Positions 5,453 to 32,259 of a DNA stretch of 35,428 nt are shown here, piece after piece. The stretch comes from Opitutus sp. (GTDB lineage: Bacteria > Verrucomicrobiota > Verrucomicrobiia > Opitutales > Opitutaceae). The notes beneath the pieces were generated by a model. That model was not told the DNA's origin, did not search any database, and worked only from the letters and a program-made list of their open reading frames with translations. The position numbers were made by a program, and so were the translations under genes. The DNA is taken from contig JANYAM010000060.1 of NCBI GenBank assembly GCA_025361365.1, forward strand, positions 1 to 35,428. Direction: 5' to 3'. The stretch's first letter is position 1; each line of letters opens with the position of its first letter.

Positions 5453-6328
5453 TTAGAAGCCATGCAGCGTGATGCCCCAGGCCCTGGCCTGCGCGAGCAC
5501 GGCGGGTTTCTCGAGGACAATCACCTTGCCGGCCTCGAGAGCGGCGGCGTGGAGGCCGGCGGCGTGCATGGTCTCGAGGGTGCGCAGGCCGAAGACCGGC
5601 ACATCGAAGCGGAAGTCCTGCTTGGCCTTCACGGTCTTCACGAAAAGGGTCTCGTCGCTCTTGAAGGTGCCGGCACGGCGCAGCATGTCGTCGGTGCCCT
5701 CAAAGGCCTCGACGGCGAGGACGGTGCCTTTGCGGACGACGCAACCCTGGCCGACGTCGAGGCGGGCCATCTCGTGGGCGATGTGGATGCCGTGCTGCAC
5801 GTATTCGTCGTCGATCCCGAGCTTGCCGGTCATGGCGCCGGCGGTGGCGAGTTGGTCGTCGATGAAGGCGCGGGCGTCGAGCAGGGTGACGCCGAGCTTC
5901 TCGATCTCGGTGGCGATCGCGCCGAAGATCGTCTCGGCGTTGCGGCGCTTGAGGGAAAAGAGAATCGAGGCGGCCTTCAGGTCGGGCACGAGGCCGTGGA
6001 AGAGCTTCTTGGGCTTTACCTGGCCGGCCATGAGGGCGTAGCCGGCGCCGAAGGCCTTCAGGGTGTCGAGCATTTTGCCGACCTGGCCGACGTTCAGCGT
6101 GACGCGTTCGCTCTCCGGGAAGCTGGCGATGAGCGCCGGCTCGGTCTCGTCGTCCATGGCGATGAGCCGCAGCGGCACGCCGGCGGCGCGGATGGCGGCG
6201 GCGGTGATGACCGGATAGCTCCCACGGCCGGCGATGAGAGCGACGGGGCGGCGGGCATCAAAGCCCTGGGGCAGGAAGGCAGAAGGCACGGGGAGAGCAT
6301 GAAACGTCCAGCATCCAACACTCAACAT
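5453..6328 (-). CDS. lpxI: UDP-2,3-diacylglucosamine pyrophosphatase LpxI
   Basis: Cytoplasmic lipid A pathway enzyme that hydrolyses UDP-2,3-diacylglucosamine to lipid X and UMP, the alternative to LpxH. The conserved start VALIAGRGSYPVITAAA matches the usual LpxI opening, followed by the first domain and the C-terminal DUF1009 core with KVMKPKQDF-like TVKAKQDFRFDVPVFGLRT. The longest frame begins at ATG 6328 and gives 291 residues. Its first ten residues, however, are encoded by a heptamer repeat array and the homologous region starts only near residue 29. A GTG at 6289 (residue 14, giving 278 residues) is a plausible alternative and closer to normal family length. It lies 86 bases downstream of the tyrosine autokinase gene and might be read from the exopolysaccharide promoter. 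Confidence 0.88.
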   Translation of the reverse strand: MLSVGCWTFHALPVPSAFLPQGFDARRPVALIAGRGSYPVITAAAIRAAGVPLRLIAMDDETEPALIASFPESERVTLNVGQVGKMLDTLKAFGAGYALMAGQVKPKKLFHGLVPDLKAASILFSLKRRNAETIFGAIATEIEKLGVTLLDARAFIDDQLATAGAMTGKLGIDDEYVQHGIHIAHEMARLDVGQGCVVRKGTVLAVEAFEGTDDMLRRAGTFKSDETLFVKTVKAKQDFRFDVPVFGLRTLETMHAAGLHAAALEAGKVIVLEKPAVLAQARAWGITLHGF

Positions 6329-6399
6329 CCAACGTCCATTAGCGGCGCATGTTGATTGGGAACTGGACGTGCAACGTTCGAGGTTGAACGTTGGACGTT
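6303..6399. repeat. Inverted heptamer arrays (element A) at the lpxI start
   Basis: Left array 6303-6337 is five consecutive 7-base units on the plus strand: AACGTCC, AGCATCC, AACACTC, AACATCC, AACGTCC. Right array 6365-6399 is five units in opposite orientation: GGACGTG, CAACGTT, CGAGGTT, GAACGTT, GGACGTT. A 27-base spacer separates them. The outermost units pair perfectly and the inner ones have diverged. The element fills almost all of the gap between the autokinase stop (6415) and lpxI, and includes the ATG at 6328. Confidence 0.8.
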
Positions 6400-6414
6400 G
6401 CGGTTCGCAGCGTC

Positions 6415-26317: not shown

Positions 26318-26326
26318 TTTCAACCC

Positions 26327-26360
26327 AAGAGCCGCGAAGCAATTCGCGGCTCTTTTCTTT
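26327..26360 (+). terminator. Rho-independent terminator of metK-ahcY
   Basis: A perfect 12-bp stem (26327-26338 with 26343-26354) is closed by a GCAA tetraloop, and the 3' arm runs into TTTTCTTT. It begins 9 bases after the ahcY stop codon. The structure and T-run are canonical, so transcription from metK very likely ends here. Confidence 0.9.
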
Positions 26361-26410
26361 GGAGGGCCCAGCTCCAGCTGGGCCGCGGCACATCGGGAGA
26401 TGTGCCCTCC
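26361..26410. repeat. REPIN-like element, GGAG family
   Basis: GGAG at the left foot and CTCC at the right foot. The outer stem GGAGGGC/GCCCTCC (26361-26367 with 26404-26410) encloses two hairpins: CCCAGCT-CC-AGCTGGG, and GCACATC-GGGA-GATGTGC. The fold is a three-way junction. It sits directly after the ahcY terminator and just before the stop codon of the convergent ABC ATPase gene. Confidence 0.75.
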
Positions 26411-26412
26411 AC

Positions 26413-27225
26413 TTAGGCTGACACTACGTCATAATCGCGGCCTCGCTTCACCACGCGCAACTTCGCGCCAAACAGTTTCGAGAGCGCCGCCGAGGTCAGC
26501 ATCCTCTGCTTCGGTCCGTCGGCCACGATGCGGCCGTCCTTCATCAGGATCACCCGCTCGATCTCGGGAATGAGGTCGGCGATGTGGTGCGTGACGAGGA
26601 TCAGGCTTTTGCCGGCGCGCGCCAGCTTGCGCAGCACGGTGCGGAATTCCCGCACCGCCCCGGGGTCAAGGCTGGTGGTGGGCTCGTCGAGGATCAGCGC
26701 CTCGGGGTCGTGCACCAGGGCCCGGCCGATCATGGCCCGGCGCTGCTCGCCGGAGGACATGGCGGAAAGCGGTCGGGCGGCCAGGTGGCTGATCTCCAGG
26801 AAACGCAGCAGCTCGCGCGCGCGGCGCTCGTGCGCCGGCGTTGGCCGGTGGTGCGGCCACAGCCCCAGGCTGTTGAAGAAGCCGGAGAGCACCATCTCGC
26901 GGGCCGTCACCTGCCGGGACATCACCTCGTGCGAGAGATTCTGCAGCATATCCAGGATGACGATGCCGATGCGCTGGCGGACATCCTCCAGCGCCCAGTT
27001 CTCCTGGCCGAAGAGCTGGAAGCGCATTCCGCGAAACCCCGTTTCCGGATACAGCTCGCAGGTGATCAGCTTGACGAGGGTGGATTTGCCCGAGCCGTTC
27101 GGACCGAGGAGGGCGATGTGCTCGCCGCGCCGCACTTGCAGGTTAAAGGCCCGCAATACCCGCCGGTCGCCGCGGGCGACAGTCAGGTTCTGGAAATCGA
27201 TCAGGAGCGGAGCGGGGGAGGACAT
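26413..27225 (-). CDS. ABC transporter ATP-binding protein, orphan
   Basis: 270 residues with one complete nucleotide-binding domain: Walker A LLGPNGSGKSTLVKLI (about 36-51), Q-loop region, signature MSSGEQRRAMIGRAL (about 155-169), Walker B ALILDEPTTSLDPGAV (about 175-190) and H-loop LVTHHIADLIPEIER (about 209-223). The form of the C-terminal segment (VILMKDGRIVADGPKQRML) and the single-domain architecture resemble ModF- and iron-type importer ATPases. I cannot name the substrate. No permease or binding protein flanks it: the neighbours are the convergent ahcY and, upstream, tRNA-Ser. It may energise a permease elsewhere or have a non-transport role. The ATG at 27225 is 5 bases from a REPIN-like element that fills its leader. 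Confidence 0.9.
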   Translation of the reverse strand: MSSPAPLLIDFQNLTVARGDRRVLRAFNLQVRRGEHIALLGPNGSGKSTLVKLITCELYPETGFRGMRFQLFGQENWALEDVRQRIGIVILDMLQNLSHEVMSRQVTAREMVLSGFFNSLGLWPHHRPTPAHERRARELLRFLEISHLAARPLSAMSSGEQRRAMIGRALVHDPEALILDEPTTSLDPGAVREFRTVLRKLARAGKSLILVTHHIADLIPEIERVILMKDGRIVADGPKQRMLTSAALSKLFGAKLRVVKRGRDYDVVSA

Positions 27226-30860: not shown

Positions 30861-30925
30861 CTGTAGGTCGGGGTTTATCCCCGACATGCCGCGTGCGATG
30901 TCGGGCATAAAGCCCGACCCTACAG
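30861..30925. repeat. REPIN-like element, GTAG family (copy 2)
   Basis: Outer stem CTGTAGG/CCTACAG (30861-30867 with 30919-30925, perfect) encloses two hairpins: GTCGGGG-TTTAT-CCCCGAC at 30867-30885 and GTCGGGC-ATAAA-GCCCGAC at 30900-30918. GTAG and CTAC stand at the feet. It occupies the whole space between the convergent binding-protein gene and rpe, and its right arm contains the rpe stop codon (30920-30922). Confidence 0.85.
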
Positions 30926-31579
30926 GGCGGCAATGCCTGCCGTAAACGCGGCCTTGTTGTCGGCTTTGAAGAATGACGTGCCGGCCACGAAGGTGTCGGC
31001 GCCGGCGGCGCGGCATTCCGCGGCAGTCGCGAGGTCGATGCCACCGTCGACCTCGAGGCGGAATTTCAAACCGCGGGCCTTTCGCCAGCCGTCGATCGTC
31101 CGGAGTTTCGGCAGCATGTCGCGCCGGAACGGCTGGCCCCCGAAGCCAGGCTGCACGGTCATCACGAGCACCAAGTCCACTTCGCTGAGGAGCGTCTCGA
31201 TGCTCGCCGCGGAGGTGCCGGGGTTCACCACAATGCCGCACTGGCAGCCGAGCTGGCGGATGCGGGCGAGCGTGCCGCGGTGGTCGTAGGTCGGCTCGAT
31301 GTGGATGCTGATGTTGTTCGCCCCGGCCTTGGCGAAGGCCTCGATATATTTCTGCGGCTCGGCGAGCATCAGGTGCGTGTCGAAAAATACCTTCGAGCCG
31401 GCACGACGCAGTGCGGCGGCGGTTTCCGGGCCAAAGGTCAGATTGGGCGCAAAATGTCCGTCCATGATATCCACATGGAGCCAAGTGGCGCCCGACTGCG
31501 CGACGGCCTGCGCGCTCGCGGCGAGGTTGGCGTGGTCGCCGGCGAGCAGGGAGGGGGCGATTAAGGAAGCATGGAGCAT
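30920..31579 (-). CDS. rpe: Ribulose-phosphate 3-epimerase
   Basis: Interconverts ribulose-5-phosphate and xylulose-5-phosphate in the pentose phosphate pathway; cytoplasmic TIM barrel. I chose the ATG at 31579 (219 residues) because it opens with the family start ASLIAPSLLAGDHANL. The open frame extends back to 31690, but those extra residues come from repeat DNA. Metal and active-site motifs are HVDIMDGHFAPN (His35, Asp37 and Asp40), FFDTHLML, MTVQPGFGGQPF and LEVDGGID, then GTSFFKA near the phosphate site. The ATG lies inside a heptamer array, and the TAG stop lies in the arm of a REPIN-like element, so both ends of this gene are made of repeat sequence. lptE is 97 bases upstream on the same strand. 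Confidence 0.95.
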   Translation of the reverse strand: MLHASLIAPSLLAGDHANLAASAQAVAQSGATWLHVDIMDGHFAPNLTFGPETAAALRRAGSKVFFDTHLMLAEPQKYIEAFAKAGANNISIHIEPTYDHRGTLARIRQLGCQCGIVVNPGTSAASIETLLSEVDLVLVMTVQPGFGGQPFRRDMLPKLRTIDGWRKARGLKFRLEVDGGIDLATAAECRAAGADTFVAGTSFFKADNKAAFTAGIAAL

Positions 31580-31665
31580 GGAGCGGGGAGCATGGAGCAC
31601 GATGCAGTTCCCCGGCTCAATCCTGTATTTACTCCCGGCTCCTTGCTCCGGGCTACCCGCTACAG
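31564..31665. repeat. Inverted heptamer arrays (element B) at the rpe start
   Basis: Left array 31564-31605 is six 7-base units on the plus strand: AGGAAGC, ATGGAGC, ATGGAGC, GGGGAGC, ATGGAGC, ACGATGC. Right array 31631-31665 is five units in the opposite sense: ACTCCCG, GCTCCTT, GCTCCGG, GCTACCC, GCTACAG. A 25-base spacer separates them. The unit sequence differs from element A (6303-6399), but period, arm length, spacer length and position between a stop codon and the next start are the same. It contains the rpe ATG (31577-31579). Confidence 0.75.
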
Positions 31666-31676
31666 CGCAAGGGCTG

Positions 31677-32189
31677 TTACCACGTATCAAGCACCGCGTG
31701 GATCGTCTCGGCGGCGAGCTGCTCGGCCAGCAAGGGCAGGCCCTGGTATTCGGCGGGCACGAGTCCGTTGTCGGTGAAGATGCCGCGCTTGGCGGTCAGC
31801 GGGCGCTTGGCAAACAGCACCTGCTGGGTGCGCTGGTCGGTCAGGGTGGCCGAGGCGCGCAGCGAGACGTCAAAGCGCCGGGCTAGCCCGGTGTCGTCCT
31901 GCCGCGCGACGGCGACGGCCCGGTCATAGCCGGTGAGCGAGACCCGGAGCACGGCGTCGGCCGCGGCGGGCGAGTCGACGAGGGTGACGCGGCCGTCCTT
32001 GATGAAGGCTTCGCGGATCTGGGTGGTGACGAGTTCGCGGGCCTGCGGGATCAGCGTCTCGGTGGTGACCGGCGCAATGAAGAGCGTGGCGAACTTCGGC
32101 GTCGTGCCGGCGCCGAGCTTGTAGCCGGCGCAGCCGGTTAGGCCGAGGACGGAAAGTAGAAGACCGAGGAGATAGCCGAGACGTGTCAT
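31677..32189 (-). CDS. lptE: LptE-family LPS-assembly lipoprotein
   Basis: 170 residues from the ATG at 32189. The lipoprotein signal ends LTGC with Cys20, so the mature protein is anchored to the outer membrane. The mature part has the LptE-like pattern AGYKLG, FATLFIAPVTTETLIPQARELVTTQIREAFIKDG, RVTLVDSPAAADAVLRVSLTGYDRAV and a C-terminal helix HAVLDTW. LptE plugs the LptD barrel that inserts LPS. LptD itself is not in the window. The ATG lies in a repeat arm (CAGGATGAC). A longer frame starting at 32228 would add 13 residues translated from the repeat (MTPSSAGSFAPLR) before the same signal sequence. The family call rests on pattern and neighbourhood with bamD, so other DUF4136-type lipoproteins remain possible. 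Confidence 0.78.
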   Translation of the reverse strand: MTRLGYLLGLLLSVLGLTGCAGYKLGAGTTPKFATLFIAPVTTETLIPQARELVTTQIREAFIKDGRVTLVDSPAAADAVLRVSLTGYDRAVAVARQDDTGLARRFDVSLRASATLTDQRTQQVLFAKRPLTAKRGIFTDNGLVPAEYQGLPLLAEQLAAETIHAVLDTW

Positions 32190-32259
32190 CCTGAGTGGAG
32201 CGAAGGATCCAGCGGAAGAGGGCGTCATGCTGGATTCTTCGCTGCGCTCAGAATGACAG
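32185..32259. repeat. GTCATYCTGAG repeat, inverted pair (copy 2)
   Basis: Arms 32185-32213 and 32229-32257 are 29-base inverted copies matching at 25 positions, 15 bases apart. Each arm contains its own 5-bp hairpin, ATCCT/AGGAT in one and ATTCT/AGAAT in the other, a compensatory C-G to T-A change. Bases 32230-32259 are identical to 4779-4808. The element sits between bamD and lptE, and the left arm includes the lptE ATG. Confidence 0.85.

Follow-up and report, generated by a model that had tools for sequence, protein, structure and literature searches.

A pair of inverted heptamer arrays at the rpe junction of Opitutus sp. and its possible PF05635 gene-bearing relatives

The window analysed here, a stretch of 35,428 nucleotides from Opitutus sp. 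(contig JANYAM010000060.1), contains two arrays of degenerate heptamers that face each other between rpe and the gene upstream of it (element B), and a second pair built of another unit (element A) lies at a different gene junction. The locus raises the question of what kind of element keeps such an architecture while its unit sequence changes, and how it came to lie between two genes. A sequence-only reading had proposed that selection or a generating mechanism acts on architecture rather than on sequence, and had regarded element B as a candidate for an undescribed element class. The features concerned are the following.

6303..6400: element A, inverted period-7 pair of the AACGTCC type, score 78, RNA fold z -4.53
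30920..31579, minus strand: rpe (ribulose-phosphate 3-epimerase), TIGR01163 at 240.8 bits (cut-off 212.6)
31564-31665: element B, inverted period-7 pair between the upstream gene and rpe
31564..31605, plus strand: left arm, six heptamers of the ATGGAGC type; together with the right arm score 82, reached by 0 of 20,000 shuffles
31606..31630: spacer of 25 bases, no gene
31614..31623, minus strand: GGATTGAGCC box within the spacer
31631..31665, plus strand: right arm, five inverted heptamers (GCTCCNN), the outer two degenerate
31677..32228, minus strand: upstream gene (open reading frame and translation), called lptE in the sequence-only reading; stop codon TAA at 31679-31677

Element B and the rpe junction

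The score used here combines period and inversion and takes no account of unit sequence, a value of 70 being 0.625 of its maximum. The highest score among the 20,000 second-order-Markov shuffles of positions 31500-31750 is 70, against 82 for element B, which confirms the row of six heptamers and the inverted row of five on the far side of the 25-base spacer. The left units, from 31564, are AGGAAGC, ATGGAGC, ATGGAGC, GGGGAGC, ATGGAGC and ACGATGC, and the right ones (31631-31665) are ACTCCCG, GCTCCTT, GCTCCGG, GCTACCC and GCTACAG in the register of the sequence-only reading (an alternative scoring register starts one base later); the outer units are degenerate in both arms. Tandem Repeats Finder reports the left arm alone (31568-31599), and a general inverted-repeat search finds no arm-to-arm pair at element B because the arms are imperfect, the sole inverted pair being that of a short palindrome at 31533-31548. 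In the direction of the coding (minus) strand, the stop codon at 31679-31677 is followed by 11 bases, one arm, the spacer with the GGATTGAGCC box and the other arm, which overlaps the likely rpe start codon, so that the placement described earlier also holds. Since this ATG (31579-31577, picked by comparison with relatives) falls in the arm at 31564-31605, the heptamer array would encode the N-terminus MLHAS of the epimerase. The identity of the gene as rpe is certain; the name lptE is unconfirmed, since no NCBIfam family is found for the upstream gene at E≤0.1.

The predicted RNA fold of positions 31555-31680 on the coding strand has an energy of -53.2 kcal/mol (z -2.87). Neither an intrinsic terminator (a GC-rich stem followed by a T run) nor, in a sigma-70 scan, a promoter-like site was found at 31500-31760, and no Rfam family comes near its cut-off at 31400-31800. 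Two matches to Rfam microRNA models in the latter region (E≤1) were rejected, being far below the cut-offs. Elsewhere in the window, at 26326-26467, GC-rich palindromes (GGGCCCAGCTCCAGCTGGGCC; ACATCGGGAGATGT) stand beside a hairpin followed by T residues, and similar palindromes occur at other junctions.

The rpe junction was then scored in 69 loci, namely the window and 68 of 80 relatives, 12 others being omitted irrespective of result. A TTGAGC box lies upstream of rpe in 24 of the 69, and 16 of these 24 have no significant period-7 array; such an array near the rpe start is present in 8 of the 24 box loci (the window and seven others) versus 2 of 45 boxless ones (Fisher P 0.002). The seven others have it beside the rpe start with different units, e.g. 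GTCATCT (by eye), and the full inverted pair (≥0.60) exists only in the window. Thus, the box, accompanied in some relatives by one arm, occurs without the other arm of element B. Moreover, tblastn of the rpe loci of all 80 relatives revealed no PF05635-like gene (57 open reading frames read at PF05635 matches, E≤1e-6), so no gene-bearing form is known at this site. The junctions of five relatives (L007, L008, L016, L017 and L042) contain other palindromic repeats (e.g. GGCGGTCTATGACCGCC, GGGGTGCCCTCACCCC) near the position of the upstream arm of element B.

Inverted period-7 arrays with and without a PF05635 gene

The genome assembly comprises 3,556,238 bases in 297 contigs, of which the window and 60 further stretches (613,938 bases in all) were scanned; four of the 60 (contigs 36, 98, 146 and 244) were picked for their BLAST matches to element B, and the remaining contig numbers were picked blind, not by random draw. 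This sample contains 13 inverted period-7 pairs scoring at least 70 and 14 reaching 0.6, while five shuffles gave 0 at 0.6. Two of the 13 lie in the window, three in the BLAST-picked stretches (L091, and L105 twice) and eight in the other 56. The sequence-only reading would have been refuted by a shuffled-control scan with no excess of 7-periodic inverted pairs, and over this part of the genome there is no such refutation. Six unit types are represented: AACGTYC (seven pairs, including element A), CCAAATC-like (two), ATGGAGC (element B), ACCTGAA, GATTGCG and GGGTTTG-like. Measured over their best-scoring arms, the 13 pairs range from 60 to 120 bases, and the likeness of elements A and B in arm and spacer length, which had been noted as a shared trait, is therefore a coincidence and not a general rule. 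At 0.6, the scan gave 4 pairs of period 8 (one of them a period-7 pair again), 4 of period 9 and 2 of period 10, against 0 in the shuffles; there were none at periods 11 and 12, and periods 4 and 5 gave as many as the shuffles or nearly so. At period 6, weak matches are in excess (46 versus 6.2 shuffled at 0.6, and 4 versus 0.8 at 0.65). In the 80 related loci (1,228,170 bases) seven period-7 pairs score at least 70, two of which (L020 and L018) consist of runs of G or C and are not defensible; three shuffles gave none, two values reaching 68. Tandem segments alone, at high stringency, number 10 at period 7 in 1,263,598 bases, and within one genome the tandem pattern AACRTYS has 21 matches versus 0 for its reversed control. 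An inverted scan by shared 6-mers proved too loose in GC-rich DNA (128 real versus 117 shuffled at period 7) and was abandoned.

Copies of the B type were looked for with the pattern GGAGCANGGAGCANGGAGC, which describes GGAGCAN arrays and is strict enough to leave out element B itself. Of the 21 genomes examined in the genus, 10 contain it (reversed control 0), at 24 loci after 6 overlapping ones among the 30 found were dropped. Most arrays are solitary, and a close inverted partner is recognised by the strict pattern in three of the 24 loci. One is a B-type inverted pair in the genome of the window (L344). Another (L327) lies at a gene junction, between what we take to be genes for a uridylate-kinase-like and a ribosome-recycling-factor-like protein, in the same order of stop, arm, spacer, arm and ATG as element B. 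The third (L324, RNA fold z -4.53), from a draft genome estimated to be 86% complete, sits in frame inside a gene that is presumably valine-tRNA-ligase-like (valS-like). Between the two flanking parts of the gene, L324 has 108 bases against nine in all 19 matching congeners (or three, in one where the second part begins to align two residues earlier; one further genome has no match), a net gain of 99. Gene borders are hence the usual place of such elements, as the sequence-only reading had it, but not the sole one. The ends of the valS-like insertion were located short of single-base precision, and no target-site duplication was established for it; as far as sequence comparison goes, it is the clearest sign that arm, spacer and arm may arrive as a unit. 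In the same genome as element B, GGAGCAG arrays of four to five units (L002-L005) have no evident inverted partner and seemingly lie in coding regions (by eye).

Degenerate repeats often surround small genes of two families, PF13366 (GxxExxY) and PF05635 (23S rRNA intervening-sequence protein). A profile search of the same genome gave 12 PF13366 and 6 PF05635 matches, and inverted arrays flank most of these 18 genes (by eye), with arrays on one side or none at L152, L153, L154 and L161. For scoring of the flanks the best period among 5-12 was picked, one of the six PF05635 matches (L161, 44 profile positions) being excluded. Period 7 is best in 34 of 35 PF05635 loci (5 of this genome, 30 of the family), in 24 of 27 loci of the same genus and, for other families within the phylum, likewise in 24 of 27, with 0 of 270 shuffled flanks reaching 0.62 in each of the latter two sets. 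For Verrucomicrobiota in total it is 82 of 89 loci, which are the best-scoring matches of each search, not a random sample, and are not independent because some share ancestry and unit (e.g. L182/L184 and L302/L306); the other 7 have other best periods. The period-7 score is at least 0.62 in 81 of the 89, against 0 of 400 random gene-sized placements, and the outer span has a median of 448 bases. When flanks were swapped between loci, the mean score fell from 0.770 to 0.608, so both arms of one cassette share their own unit; 57 of 150 swapped pairs still reached 0.62 because each flank is periodic by itself. The units vary widely (TTGAGAG, GCGGATT, GAAACCT, GAGTCAG, AAGCTTT, GGAGAAC), and some recur. 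With best period 7 and inverted arms in 82 of 89 loci and such a choice of units, the proposal that architecture is kept and sequence is free is borne out.

The same arrangement is found on plasmids of other phyla, of which 15 PF05635 loci were taken from 32 matches (12 cyanobacterial, and one each from Bernardetia, Gemmatirosa and Azospirillum). Period 7 is best in 13 of the 15 and period 8 in those of Gemmatirosa and Picosynechococcus (shuffles 1/300); the Bernardetia locus has period 7 but is weak (0.625). Five cassettes of cyanobacterial plasmids lie inside cas or cmr clusters (L371, L372, L375, L381 and L384), with period 7 in four and period 8 in L384, and one of the 15 (L374) lies between two ribonucleotide-reductase genes. 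Members of the class thus occur in Verrucomicrobiota, Cyanobacteriota and Alphaproteobacteria, with a weaker case on one Bacteroidota plasmid. A PF05635 query matches PDB entry 2rld (E 7e-7). Below curated cut-offs, the Pfam model bAvd is matched by two of three PF05635 proteins (E 5e-8 and 7e-4) and the NCBIfam model NF033474 (Avd) by one of two (E 3e-10); by these sub-cut-off matches some PF05635 proteins are similar to Avd of diversity-generating retroelements.

Several gene-less pairs in the genome of the window resemble cassettes of that genome by eye, namely GCGGATT (L121, cassette L159), ACCTGAA (L091, cassette L160), CCAAACG-like (L127 and L100, cassette L162) and the AACG type (element A and others, cassette L163). 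For element B itself, the best match of its unit to PF05635 arms of best period 7 is 17 of 21 bases (L301), with a shuffle maximum of 16, and because this is only marginal we do not claim shared descent of its unit with the cassettes.

The family PF13366, which is unrelated to PF05635, behaves differently. Among 36 loci scored (L152-L154 of this genome and L201, L216 and L218 of the family were omitted), the best periods are 9 (13 loci), 8 (7), 10 (2), 6 (8) and 5 (6), so that 22 of 36 (L146-L157, L194-L223) have periods 8-10, e.g. AACCACGAAGGACACGAAG. At period 9, 14 of 36 loci reach 0.58 versus 12 of 150 swapped pairs; at period 7, 2 of 36 do. Pairs like those of the PF13366 type with no such gene between close arms were seen at L091, L099, L120 and L131.

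Origin of element B and described heptamer repeats

Gene-bearing PF05635 relatives are the main explanation of the architecture of element B. It has the two inverted arrays above chance that mark the class and no PF05635 gene between them, and with a 25-base spacer devoid of a gene it could therefore only be a gene-less form. We think it rather probable that element B belongs, as a MITE-like hairpin devoid of a gene, to a class of short, mobile period-7 elements whose full-length members carry a PF05635 gene. These would be cassettes of about 450 bases, with one small gene for a four-helix-bundle protein between inverted degenerate-heptamer arms. MITEs and REPINs are short and gene-less, with inverted ends and dispersed copies, and in all this they are like the present class; they are unlike it in that no transposase parent was found here and the ends share period, not sequence. 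The candidate full-length forms carry PF05635 and no transposase, the unit of element B matching them weakly (17/21 vs 16).

The sequences show that PF05635 genes have arms of period 7, that the units vary widely, that gene-less pairs exist, that junctions are re-used (see below) and that one B-type block is present in the valS-like gene of one genome and absent from its congeners; the mechanism of the class as a whole we infer. Since it is the period and not the sequence that tracks the protein family, the PF05635 protein may meet the array by its spacing, or help to make it. Gene-less forms would be derived from cassettes or moved by them in trans. The arms may pair in the transcript, and cutting or bypassing of the hairpin could make insertion between operon genes tolerable, by analogy with rRNA intervening sequences. 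For the copying step, the similarity to Avd prompts the guess of a route through RNA. The class of cassettes and gene-less forms is probably mobile. Several observations stand against this explanation: the unit of element B matches no PF05635 arm clearly, solitary GGAGCAN arrays predominate, no gene-bearing form is known at rpe, no target-site duplication was established, 7 of 89 loci have other periods, and the heptamers of Xanthomonas are reported, in the available text, apart from mobile elements (PMC4692102). Also, the box may be native to the site and element B may have been assembled around it instead of arriving as one block, since seven other loci have the TTGAGC box and an array with no full pair.

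This last point leads to a rival explanation, in which element B was made in place, an array at the rpe start being expanded by slippage and a reversed copy being laid down across the TTGAGC box by template switching, with mobility unneeded. The arrays of the seven further box loci would fit it, as would the finding that the arms of one locus match each other better than those of other loci, but unit types recur within one genome (21 AACRTYS matches versus 0 reversed) and GGAGCAN arrays in 10 of 21 genomes (versus 0), and at the valS-like site arms and spacer appear together; we consider it unlikely as the origin of element B. That element B is instead a regulatory RNA hairpin of the transcript into rpe (an attenuator, a stabiliser or a translational control), kept for its function, agrees with the stable predicted fold (z -2.87) and with the overlap of the likely start codon. 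A full inverted pair in the window only, out of 69 junctions, and the lack of any terminator- or promoter-like site (31500-31760) or Rfam family near its cut-off (31400-31800) make this reading improbable. In the least credible proposal, which follows one made for Beggiatoaceae and Xanthomonas, the heptamers would be sites to which a regulator binds or G-rich repeats that form structures; the published repeats of those two groups, in the text available, lie near gene starts and stops (PMC4692102, PMC4679880). Regulator sites would be expected to have one sequence, while the units here differ between sites and between orthologous junctions.

Repeats of this kind are partly known. In the accessible part of PMC4692102, convergent pairs of GGGAATC heptamers are counted in two Xanthomonas genomes (70 and 75 cases), the repeats are described as generally unassociated with insertion or transposable elements and as lying in stable regions, and no function is agreed for the tandem heptamers of Xanthomonas and Nostoc. 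Element B shares with these pairs the close inverted arrangement of heptamer arrays; they differ by their fixed GGGAATC unit (ATGGAGC in element B) and have been studied as a G-quadruplex sequence, and the accessible part links no protein family to them and says that they do not accompany mobile elements. Tandem heptamers are also described as GGGGAYT in Nostoc (PMC4692102), TAACTGA in Beggiatoaceae (PMC4679880) and GGACCGG in Geobacter (four units, 49 elements; PMC2700814). Like the present arrays they are dispersed, between and within genes; unlike them they are mostly direct, have fixed units and are viewed as putative regulatory sites or RNA elements. Because convergent pairs and dispersed tandem heptamers are already in print, element B is a variant of something known.

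The protein family has been described as well. According to the consulted part of PMC4990558, it belongs to intervening sequences (IVS) in rRNA, hairpins excised by RNase III (in Coxiella, 428 nt with a 28-bp stem); a member from Xanthomonas assembles as a homopentamer built from four-helix bundles, and no function has been established for PF05635 proteins. The IVS of 23S rRNA resembles the cassettes in having a PF05635 gene within inverted arms and a similar length (428 nt in Coxiella versus the cassette median of 448, as far as that part goes), and element B shares with it terminal inverted repeats able to pair in RNA, here as a predicted stem alone. It is unlike them in lying in rRNA helices, whereas the elements here lie between protein genes, element B between two of them; compared by description, the present elements also have tandem-heptamer arms, and element B is without a gene. 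The claim of an undescribed element class is therefore true in part: convergent heptamer pairs (PMC4692102) and the protein family (PMC4990558) are in print, as the consulted parts show, and the class as such is not wholly undescribed. A link between heptamer arrays and PF05635 genes was not found in the open-licence literature.

A connection of period and protein with varying sequence joins two puzzles, that of the heptamers and that of the function of PF05635, and makes both testable. More tentatively, we suggest that there could be a widespread transposase-free mobile class in which the period of the ends is set at seven, and their sequence left free, by a small four-helix-bundle protein related to Avd (S23/IVP), the nuclease-fold GxxExxY protein doing likewise at eight to ten, and the dispersed heptamers of cyanobacteria, Xanthomonas and others being its ends or gene-less forms. 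If the elements move, they would be mobile DNA that lacks a recognised transposase and enters operons between their genes, cas clusters of cyanobacterial plasmids among them; this would explain why different hairpins stand at one gene junction in related species.

Orthologous junctions in the genus

Two junctions were compared among the congeners; orthologous sites turned out to differ in unit, to have elements with or without a gene, or to be empty. The junction of element A, which follows a tyrosine-autokinase-like gene of 727 residues and precedes a gene that presumably resembles lpxI, was scored in 19 cases (L267, a fragment, was omitted, and L265 is cut there). A significant inverted period-7 pair is found in 5 of 19, with the AACGTCC unit in the window, a GTAGTCC-like one in L257, L258 and L268 and a GGTCTCT-like one in L264, and a period-8 pair in 4 of 19 (L252, L255, L260 and L261), all with P≤0.003 in 300 shuffles. 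At 10 of 19 there is no significant pair (L254 is at 0.043, and L254 and L262 show one arm by eye). The nearest relative (L252), whose neighbouring protein is 95% identical, has another unit and another period than element A. The second junction lies between genes that we take to be trpB and yicC, and its 19 cases were classified by eye. Eight have cassettes, five of them with arms of a CCAAACG-like unit and three with AAGTAAC, and in each of the eight a PF05635 match lies beside trpB; the remainder comprise one remnant arm, four gene-less inverted repeats (L274 uncertain), three plain gaps and three ATGA overlaps. At the junction of element A, a box like GGGATTGTCGTCC stands before the right arm in L254, L257, L258, L262, L264 and L268 (varied in L264 and L268); it resembles the GGATTGAGCC box at rpe and is possibly part of a promoter or of the element.
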